NCBI RefSeq assembly: GCF_030219325.1 | Contig: NZ_CP126625.1 | Location: 496,001 to 560,000, forward strand | DNA: 64,000 nucleotides | Reading direction: 5' to 3' | Origin: Geothrix sp. | GTDB lineage: Bacteria > Acidobacteriota > Holophagae > Holophagales > Holophagaceae | Part shown: piece by piece, positions 30,440-34,066 of the stretch | How positions within the stretch are numbered: position 1 is the first letter of the stretch | Layout of the letters: every line of letters begins with the position of its first letter | Translations under genes and position numbers: made by a program | The notes under the pieces: generated by a model | What the model saw: the letters and a program-made list of their open reading frames with translations, nothing else | Told to the model about the DNA's origin: nothing | Database searches by the model: none

Positions 30440-30545
30440 TGGACCTCCGGGGTCGGAATCGTCGCACCCTGCTACAGGTTGCAGAATGCGACGAATGTTG
30501 AGGGTTTCAAATTGAGCCAAGTCGTTGTTTTGCTTTACATATGAT

Positions 30546-30563
30546 TTGGCCCAAAGCCTGCTT
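30546..30563 (+). promoter_or_regulatory. Possible sigma-54 promoter
   Basis: TTGGCCC-AAAGCC-TGCTT places GG (30548-30549) and GC (30560-30561) with exactly ten bases between them, as in the consensus TGGCAC-N5-TTGC. It lies 49 bases before the ATG of the Lys-rich repeat protein and just after a sigma-54 activator gene. The -12 element is degenerate, so this is tentative. Confidence 0.35.
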
Positions 30564-30611
30564 GGGGTTATGCACTTCCGGCCGTGCCGGATCACCCCAG
30601 GGAGCACCCCC

Positions 30612-31727
30612 ATGAAGAAGCTTGCTGCGCTGCTCGTCGCCGCCGCTCTGATCAGCCCCGTCTTCGCCGAAGAGGCCAAGAAGCCCGAAGCCAAGAAGAC
30701 CGAGAAGGTTGAGACCAAGAAGGCCGAGAAGAAGGCCGAGCCCAAGAAGGAAGAGGCCAAGAAGGCCCTGACCGCCGAGGAGAAGAAGGCCGAGCCCAAG
30801 AAGGAAGAGAAGAAGGCCGAGAAGAAGGCTGAGAAGAAGGCCGAGCCCAAGAAGGAAGAGGCCAAGAAGGCCCTGACCGCCGAGGAGAAGAAGGCCGAGC
30901 CCAAGAAGGAAGAGAAGAAGGCCGAGAAGAAGGCTGAGAAGAAGGCCGAGCCCAAGAAGGAAGAGGCCAAGAAGGCCCTGACCGCCGAAGAGAAGAAGGC
31001 TGAAGCCGCCCCCAAGGCCGAGAAGAAGGCCAAGAAGGCGAAGAAGGCCAAGGCTGAGCCCAAGAAGGAAGAGGCCAAGAAGGCCCTGACCGCCGAAGAG
31101 AAGAAGGCCGAAGCCGCCCCCAAGGCCGAGAAGAAGGCCAAGAAGGCGAAGAAGGCCAAGGCTGAGCCCAAGAAGGAAGAGGCCAAGAAGGCCCTGACCG
31201 CCGAAGAGAAGAAGGCTGAAGCCGCCCCCAAGGCCGAGAAGAAGGCCAAGAAGGCGAAGAAGGCCAAGGCTGAGCCCAAGAAGGAAGAGGCCAAGAAGGC
31301 CCTGACCGCCGAAGAGAAGAAGGCCGAAGCCGCCCCCAAGGCCGAGAAGAAGGCCAAGAAGGCGAAGAAGGCCAAGGCTGAGCCCAAGAAGGAAGAGGCC
31401 AAGAAGGCCCTGACCGCCGAAGAGAAGAAGGCTGAAGCCGCCCCCAAGGCCGAGAAGAAGGCCAAGAAGGCGAAGAAGGCCAAGGCCGAGCCCAAGAAGG
31501 AAGAGGCCAAGAAGGCCCTGACCGCCGAGGAGAAGAAGGCCGAGAAGAAGGCCGCCTGCCCCAAGGACTGCCAGAAGGAGTGCTGCAAGAAGGCTGAGAA
31601 GAAGGCCGAGGCCAAGAAGGCCCTGACCGCCGAAGAGAAGAAGGCCGAGCCCAAGAAGGAAGAGAAGAAGGCCGAGAAGAAGGCTGAGCCCAAGAAGGAT
31701 GAGAAGAAGGCTGAAGCCAAGAAGTAA
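30612..31727 (+). CDS. Secreted Lys/Ala/Glu-rich repeat protein
   Basis: 371 residues: a good signal peptide (MKKLAALLVAAALISPVFA), then an almost pure K/A/E/P chain. Five tandem 36-residue units of the type AEPKKEEAKKALTAEEKKAE... occupy residues about 112-291, preceded by two shorter related repeats. A Cys cluster CPKDCQKECC (Cys 316, 320, 324, 325) interrupts the pattern near the C-terminus. ALTAEEKK recurs about nine times. The chain should form long charged helices. Histone-H1/TolA-like composition, but no known family; the signal peptide argues for an envelope or extracellular role. A terminator follows, so it is monocistronic. Confidence 0.85.
   Translation: MKKLAALLVAAALISPVFAEEAKKPEAKKTEKVETKKAEKKAEPKKEEAKKALTAEEKKAEPKKEEKKAEKKAEKKAEPKKEEAKKALTAEEKKAEPKKEEKKAEKKAEKKAEPKKEEAKKALTAEEKKAEAAPKAEKKAKKAKKAKAEPKKEEAKKALTAEEKKAEAAPKAEKKAKKAKKAKAEPKKEEAKKALTAEEKKAEAAPKAEKKAKKAKKAKAEPKKEEAKKALTAEEKKAEAAPKAEKKAKKAKKAKAEPKKEEAKKALTAEEKKAEAAPKAEKKAKKAKKAKAEPKKEEAKKALTAEEKKAEKKAACPKDCQKECCKKAEKKAEAKKALTAEEKKAEPKKEEKKAEKKAEPKKDEKKAEAKK
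30945..31484 (+). repeat. Five tandem 108-bp coding repeats
   Basis: Copies start at 30945, 31053, 31161, 31269 and 31377, each 108 bases (36 codons) and nearly identical; differences are mostly GCC/GCT and GAA/GAG synonymous changes. A sixth partial copy begins at 31485. The near identity suggests recent expansion or gene conversion. Confidence 0.92.
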
Positions 31728-32698: not shown

Positions 32699-33196
32699 GT
32701 GGCGAAGCTTGATCTCATGTTGTACGAGGAGGAGTACAAGCTCCTCCAGGAGATCATCGGCCGCCTCGAGAAGGATGCCTCCGCCAAGGTGGTCTTCCTG
32801 GTGGACAAGAACGGCCAGCAGATCGCCGCGGCCGGGGACGTGAAGAGCATCGACGCCACCAGCCTGGCCTCCCTCACGGCCGGCAACGTGGCGGCCACGG
32901 ACGGGCTGGCCAAGCTCATCGGCGAGAAGGAGTTCAGCCTGCTCTTCCACGAGGGGGAGAAGGACAACCTGCACATTTCCATCGTGGGCAAGCGCGGGAT
33001 CCTGGTGGTGATCTTCGACCAGAACTCCAGCCTGGCTCTGGTGCGGCTGCGGGTGAAGAAGGCCAGCAAGGAACTCCAGGAGATCTTCGACCAGGTCGAG
33101 CAGCGGGCCCAGAAGGAATCCGACAGCGGCAGCCGCTTCGAGAGCCCCTTCTCGGAGATCACCGACGAAGACATCGATCGCCTCTTCGGCGACTAA
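32699..33196 (+). CDS. Roadblock/LC7-domain protein (MglB-like)
   Basis: 165-residue protein with a roadblock/LC7 fold (about 25-120: ASAKVVFLVDKNGQQIAAAG, SLTAGNVAATDGLAKLIGE, LHISIVGKRGILVVIFDQ). GTG start after GGAGG. Such proteins act as GTPase-activating or scaffold partners of MglA-type small GTPases, and an mglA gene follows. The last 40 residues are acidic. The stop codon TAA is the first base triplet of a 276-bp inverted-repeat element that now lies between it and mglA. Confidence 0.85.
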   Translation: MAKLDLMLYEEEYKLLQEIIGRLEKDASAKVVFLVDKNGQQIAAAGDVKSIDATSLASLTAGNVAATDGLAKLIGEKEFSLLFHEGEKDNLHISIVGKRGILVVIFDQNSSLALVRLRVKKASKELQEIFDQVEQRAQKESDSGSRFESPFSEITDEDIDRLFGD

Positions 33197-33469
33197 GAGT
33201 GCCTAACAAAACCCCGACGAGGCCGCGATGAAGCCAGGCTGGATGCACCGCAAGGAAGGGCCCGCAGGGCGATGCGGGACATCGTGCAAGGGCCGTGACG
33301 CCGCGGGGCGCCAGCCTGGCTCCATCCCTCCGGGCGAGGGCCGGCGGGCGTCGCGATGCAGCGTCACGCTCGTCGCGCGTAGTACCCGCTACGCATCTCC
33401 TCGCGCTCCTCGCCTCACTCGCCCGGCGGCCCTCGCGCGACCCCGTGGGGGTTTTGTTAGGCACTCTTA
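33194..33469. mobile_element. 276-bp MITE-like element with 22-bp perfect inverted ends
   Basis: The left end TAAGAGTGCCTAACAAAACC.. (33194-33215) is repeated as a perfect 22-base inverse at 33448-33469. The ends contain GCCTAAC and GTTAGGC, the same core words as integron attC sites. Inside are further inverted pairs: AGCCAGGCTGG (33232-33242) / CCAGCCTGGCT (33311-33321) and GCGTAG..CTACGC near 33376-33393. No gene inside. Arms plus internal stems imply a strongly folded RNA if transcribed. Non-autonomous mobile element is the likeliest class. Confidence 0.75.
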
Positions 33470-33481
33470 CCAGGGCGTTCC

Positions 33482-34066
33482 ATGACCTTCATCAACTACG
33501 CGTCGCGTGAGATCAACTGCAAGATCGTCTATTACGGGCCGGGCCTCTGCGGCAAGACCACGAACATCCAGTGGATCTTCGAGCAGGCCAACCCGGACAA
33601 GCGCGGCAAGCTCGTCAGCCTCGCCACCGAGACGGACCGCACCCTGTTCTTCGACTTCCTGCCCCTCGACATGGGCACCGTGAAGGGGTTCAAGGTCCGC
33701 TTCCACCTCTACACCGTGCCGGGCCAGGTCTTCTACGACGCCAGCCGCAAGCTGATCCTCCGCGGTTGCGACGGCATCATCTTCGTGGCTGACAGCCAGA
33801 AGGCCCGCATGGAGGCCAACATCGAGTCCATCGCGAACCTGGCCACCAACCTCAAGGAGAACGGGTTCGACATCCGCTCCATTCCCTACGTCCTGCAGCT
33901 GAACAAGCGGGACATGCCCTCGGCGGCCCAGGTGCCCGAGATGGAGCGCCTCCTCCGGTTCCGGAACGAGCCCATGATCGAGGCCGTGGCCAACAAGGGC
34001 ACGGGCGTCATCGAGACGCTCAAGGCCGCCGCCCGCCAGGTGCTCATGGAACTCCAGCGCGCCTAG
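33482..34066 (+). CDS. mglA: MglA-type small Ras-like GTPase
   Basis: 194-residue GTPase. Seen: P-loop YYGPGLCGKTTN, switch region DRTLFFDFLPLDMG, PGQVFYDASRKLILRG (G3-like, with the MglA-typical Q after G), and the base motif LNKRD. In Myxococcus and Thermus MglA sets cell polarity and motility with MglB; the roadblock gene just upstream is the likely partner. The start is 12 bases past the inverted-repeat element, and its ribosome site (AGGGCG) is weak. Confidence 0.93.
   Translation: MTFINYASREINCKIVYYGPGLCGKTTNIQWIFEQANPDKRGKLVSLATETDRTLFFDFLPLDMGTVKGFKVRFHLYTVPGQVFYDASRKLILRGCDGIIFVADSQKARMEANIESIANLATNLKENGFDIRSIPYVLQLNKRDMPSAAQVPEMERLLRFRNEPMIEAVANKGTGVIETLKAAARQVLMELQRA

Follow-up and report, generated by a model that had tools for sequence, protein, structure and literature searches.

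An inserted element between the roadblock and mglA-like genes

The window, i.e. the whole stretch of 64,000 nucleotides of Geothrix sp. DNA analysed here, contains an intact roadblock/LC7 (MglB-like) gene (32699–33196, plus strand) and an intact gene for an MglA-like small GTPase (33482–34066, plus strand), and between the two lies a non-autonomous element of 270 bp with IS5-type ends (33197–33466, no strand assigned). The borders of the element were set by comparison with other copies, which have exactly the same borders. Its left terminal inverted repeat, GAGTGCCTAACAAAACCCC (33197–33215, plus strand), is perfectly complementary to the right one (33448–33466, minus strand), and an IS5-family insertion sequence of related genomes has ends much like these. 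The outermost three base pairs on each side are target bases of the form TNA: TAA on the left (33194–33196, plus strand), which doubles as the roadblock stop codon, and TTA on the right (33467–33469, no strand assigned), with a middle base unlike that of the left copy. An earlier note, made from the sequence alone, had described perfect inverted ends of 22 bp with the roadblock stop codon inside the left end. These are present at 33194–33215 and 33448–33469, the 22 bp including the target bases and the terminal repeat alone being 19 bp, so that the stop codon lies just outside the element proper. The strong folding claimed at the same time is borne out as well: the z score against shuffles is about −10.5 on both strands (−10.4 on the plus and −10.7 on the minus strand), and none of 200 shuffles folded as well. 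ORFs of 71–101 amino acids overlap the element on both strands, in DNA that is GC-rich and palindromic. Elsewhere in the window, an ORF at 30525–31727 (plus strand) contains long tandem repeats rich in Lys, Ala and Glu (KAEPKKEEAKKALTAEEKKAE), whose mirror frames give rise to spurious long ORFs on the opposite strand.

In 24 relatives, including named Geothrix species, the roadblock and mglA-like genes also occur together. The gap between the stop of the first gene and the start of the second is only 10–29 bp in all 24 of these genomes, and every one of them is without the element at this place. In the window, the element directly follows the roadblock TAA, and the mglA-like gene starts 15 bp past its right end, the distance from the roadblock stop to the mglA-like gene being 285 bp compared with <20 bp in those relatives that are named Geothrix species. 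The element at the roadblock/mglA site is an insertion, seen there in this genome alone when compared with the 24 relatives. Because it lies at the TAA stop codon, the roadblock protein was spared; the longer intergenic region could uncouple the two genes. Far from being conserved at this position in all relatives with no other copy in the genome, the element is missing from the 24 relatives and has many copies elsewhere. The suggestion in the earlier note of a structured RNA controlling mglA fares no better: nothing supports an RNA switch dedicated to this gene, since the insertion was found here in this genome only, copies reside at many unrelated loci, and the pairing has no significant strand bias.

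Copies, terminal repeats and target sites

A search for further copies in the genome and its relatives, proposed in the earlier note, revealed many. The present genome contains nine elements with window-type ends, one of the eight besides the window copy being enlarged by a nested insertion, and seven more elements with the same core and other ends, namely GAGCCTGTCCAAGTA (with CTAG flanks), GGGTCTGTTTTCAA, GAGGGTGTAGCCGAA and GGAGCGTGTCC, which brings the number of cores to 16. Matches to the window sequence were all within the genus Geothrix (60 genomes, 36 of them other Geothrix). In the genus, window-type ends also enclose interiors of about 17 to 440 bp. Core-less palindromes of 47–62 bp, consisting of two joined terminal repeats, were likewise observed, several of them with matching TNA flanks (loci L168, positions 301–347, L171, L173, L174, L176, L178, L188 and L190).

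Among 85 candidate end pairs, TNA is found on both sides in 44, and the two triplets are identical in 25 of these, compared with 11 expected; the middle base differs in 19 of the 44, the window copy (TAA/TTA) included. Conversion between copies and a relaxed target are possible reasons for the differing middle base. One and the same element occupies a common site in two Geothrix genomes (loci L261 and L266), with identical flanks (tgatctaa/tataggta), which indicates that some copies are vertically inherited or old. Judged by its ends, target and copy number, the element is a MITE. The earlier note had called it not a normal MITE, with no visible target duplication. Since its flanks agree with a TNA target in which the middle base differs, this description does not hold for the ends and the target, whereas it does hold for the interior.

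All 16 elements of the genome lie outside GC3-typical reading frames by a simple ORF test, and at least five of the 16 abut a stop codon. In Geothrix as a whole, the flank triplet is the in-frame stop of a high-GC3 open frame (≥90 codons) for 33 elements. Stop words are contained in the TNA and CTAG targets, and TAA or TGA restores the stop after insertion; the coincidence of these targets with stop codons may provide a safe harbour in GC-rich genomes.

Insertion sequences with similar ends

DDE transposases were searched for in 47 Geothrix genomes. One of these (G028) contains an 869-bp IS5-family element with ends GAACGGCTAACAAAACCC and GAGTGCCTAACAATA and TTA/TTA flanks, in which two overlapping frames match the IS5-family model NF033580 (NCBIfam); another (G061) retains a fragment whose GAGTGCCTAACAAAA end is perfect, and a third (G011) has a decayed copy. 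The transposase of the G028 element is split over its two frames at an A5G6 run (L198, 953–1755), which looks like a programmed frameshift. Since the MITE and the 869-bp element have only the outer ~18 bp in common, the former is not a simple internal deletion of the latter. Nothing indicates that the interior derives from the IS5 insertion sequence, with which it has no sequence in common beyond the ends. Two further end types match insertion sequences of the genus: an IS1182-family element of 1535 bp flanked by CTAG, and IS5-family elements of 861 bp. For some end types no insertion sequence is known. In the present genome, no IS5 transposase, no relative of the G028 enzyme and no autonomous element was detected, and the copies are probably stranded now that a matching transposase is undetectable.

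The words GCCTAAC and GTTAGGC, in which the earlier note saw integron core sites, sit within the transposon end GAGTGCCTAACAAAA. An integron attC site or cassette, for which these 7-bp words alone would speak, is a reading that we practically dismiss: the words vary between copies (GAGCTCATAAC, GAGGTCGTAAC), are absent from the homologous elements with other ends, and match the end of the IS5-family insertion sequence, lying as they do in a DDE-type terminal repeat, and the flanks examined showed no array of cassettes. What survives of the proposed new element class related to attC folding is that the element is mobile and its core apparently undescribed; the link to attC does not.

Architecture of the core

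The conserved core (33224–33438, plus strand) is about 215 bp long and consists of two inverted arms of about 95 nt around a CCCnnnnGGG hairpin. Arm A (33227–33326, plus strand) forms a hairpin in which AAGGAA (33252–33257) stands opposite TGAC (33296–33299), and arm B (33338–33432, minus strand) forms a hairpin inverted with respect to arm A, with its motif on the minus strand (33361–33413). The central mini-hairpin (33327–33334, no strand assigned) is invariant in 38 of 38 aligned cores. Two covariance models were used, R1 for single arms and R2 for both arms, the latter built from 38 cores. The window copy, which is among the sequences from which R2 was built, scores 186.2 bits on the plus strand (E 4.5e-34); because of the dyad symmetry of the core, R2 matches the minus strand too (71.6 bits, E 2.4e-12). 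An unpaired AGGA/GAC motif is retained in each arm, and the tandem G.A/A.G mismatch in arm A persists in 32 and 35 of the 38 sequences, the neighbouring pair varying between A-U and G-C. The relation between the arms is visible through the structure model only, simple local alignment of arm A with arm B doing no better than shuffles, of which 119 in 2000 scored as well. A hairpin of roughly 40 bp (GGTATCGCC..GGCGATACGCGAGAC) and a larger one are nested within the arms of some elements (L009, positions 1402–1713, L411, L159 and L161–L167).

R1 detects 32 strong arms in this genome, all of them in inverted pairs with a spacing of about 20 bp, which gives exactly 16 pairs and no solo arms. Such inverted doublets, present in all 16 cores, recall REPIN-like elements, in which paired inverted hairpins are moved by a tyrosine transposase (RAYT). 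We hold this relationship to be very unlikely, however, because the arms are about 95 nt long compared with 20–40 bp for REP sequences (PMC3733652), and because the TNA and CTAG flanks and the ends common to DDE insertion sequences explain the mobility.

Distribution across the Acidobacteriota

R1 also matched genomes of other Acidobacteriota families, and the loci there are complete elements with the same layout and new terminal repeats. Using R2, the core was found in 90 of 396 Acidobacteriota genomes, representing 24 families (E ≤ 1e-4); these E-values are rough and some of the matched genomes contributed to the model. If the calibration is sound, the false genomes expected at this threshold number well below one. 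The 69 elements with recognizable ends have a median length of 272 bp (10–90% range, 268–279 bp). Their ends form about 24 clusters, an approximate number as some may be diverged versions of each other, and include ends common to IS5 and IS1182 elements. A plasmid search gave no DNA match, and viral contigs did not contain the one 19-base core word that was searched for as an exact match.

Covariation and the level at which the structure acts

Of the cells in the alignment of 38 cores, 91.5% are paired, and double compensatory changes occur in 50 of the 56 predicted pairs compared with 37.7 in shuffles. The covariation score is 0.621 against 0.182, and no shuffle or slid control came close; as the structure came from this very alignment, it is somewhat favoured by the test, but the margin is large. 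G-U and A-C were then compared at pairs predicted on both strands, a G-U on one strand being an A-C on the other. The 59 Geothrix elements have 43 G-U and 54 A-C in about 4,070 cells, i.e. no strand preference and only about 1% G-U. For the phylum the counts are 64 and 32, respectively, a difference that is not significant (sign test over columns, P = 0.09); three pairs of arm A are mostly G-U. Real RNA families usually have more G-U. The lack of a significant strand preference, together with the very small number of G-U pairs in Geothrix, favours a structure at the level of DNA rather than RNA.

Two alternatives bear on this result. In the first, the core would be a structured RNA gene or an mRNA-stability element hitchhiking on the ends of insertion sequences, with selection acting on the transcript. 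We regard this as unlikely, even though the extensive covariation and the conserved internal-loop residues would suit it, as would the G-U excess in the phylum, the three arm A pairs, and the frequent position of elements just behind stop codons, where the 3' ends of mRNAs lie. Strand asymmetry is not significant and G-U is scarce in Geothrix, and since the arms are inverted relatives of each other, any transcript would contain one arm in the wrong sense; furthermore, the element matched none of the 4227 Rfam models, and a consensus scan found no promoter-like or terminator-like site. In the second alternative, the core would be without function, its pairing kept by template-switch correction between the hairpin arms, and the MITE would have spread passively. 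Covariation that is symmetric between strands with few G-U intermediates is the trace expected of hairpin-templated correction, and core-less palindromes with the same ends do exist. Such correction would, however, remove the AGGA/GAC mismatch together with the internal loops, both of which are nearly invariant in both arms throughout the phylum, and neither the constant length nor the retention through about 24 end types is expected of neutral filler; we consider a functionless core quite improbable.

Proposed mobilization in trans and exchange of ends

The explanation that we prefer, and think probable, is that the element is a MITE moved by an IS5 transposase in trans, and that its core has been kept across the phylum through exchange of ends while acting as DNA. 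Mobilization in trans by IS5 or IS1182 enzymes is inferred from sequence comparison, and exchange of ends from the pattern of end types. At the present site, a transposase of the IS5 family would have recognized the GAGTGCCTAACAAAA ends in trans and inserted the element at a TNA that was the TAA stop of the roadblock gene. The core would have persisted across the Acidobacteriota while its ends were swapped for those of other insertion sequences. It may work as DNA by forming, on either strand, an extruded branched hairpin or cruciform, each extruded strand then showing one AGGA/GAC tandem-mismatch motif to a putative protein partner, and the extruded core could help transposition or the survival of the palindrome. 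More tentatively, the core itself may be an evolving mobile unit, defined by its structure, as old as the phylum and fixed in size, that repeatedly changes its ends to parasitize new DDE transposases (IS5, IS1182), and whose arms present the AGGA/GAC mismatch to a putative protein.

The usual view of MITEs is that each is what remains, for a short time, of a single insertion sequence. In the present case the interior lasts longer than the ends: one structured core is found in many families with many unrelated terminal repeats. If this explanation is true, non-autonomous elements are able to change from one transposase to another and to last for as long as a phylum, and a concrete motif is available for finding the factor behind this switching and persistence.

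Comparison with known systems

A search of the literature, consisting mostly of papers outside subscription, found nothing relevant on MITEs of Geothrix or Acidobacteria and no report of a conserved interior with differing terminal repeats. Reviews of MITEs and REP sequences (PMC10969869, PMC3733652) describe related kinds, not this core. A structured core of this kind, spread through a phylum in MITEs whose ends seem exchangeable, is apparently undescribed.

The likeness to integron attC sites consists in folding and in 7-bp words resembling attC core sites, but the words here are part of a variable transposon end, and most relatives are without them. REP/REPIN and BIME repeats (PMC3116915, PMC3733652) are also paired inverted hairpins that are extragenic and symmetric on both strands; the arms here are much longer, contain an internal motif and are flanked by DDE-type terminal repeats. 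With the IS5 family (NF033580) and its non-autonomous derivatives the element has in common ends close to GAGTGCCTAAC and TNA flanks, as found on the 869-bp element of the genus, whereas its interior contains none of the sequence of that element beyond about 18 bp of the ends. The closest resemblance is to the prokaryotic MITEs, such as Correia/NEMIS, ERIC, RUP, Nezha, Chunjie and QMITE (reviewed in PMC10969869): like them, the present element is short and presumably non-coding, has terminal inverted repeats, target-derived flanks and many intergenic copies, is strongly folded, and is probably mobilized in trans. It differs from known MITEs in its interior, which is conserved through a phylum at a fixed length and shows compensatory changes, whereas the terminal repeats are entirely unlike one another.
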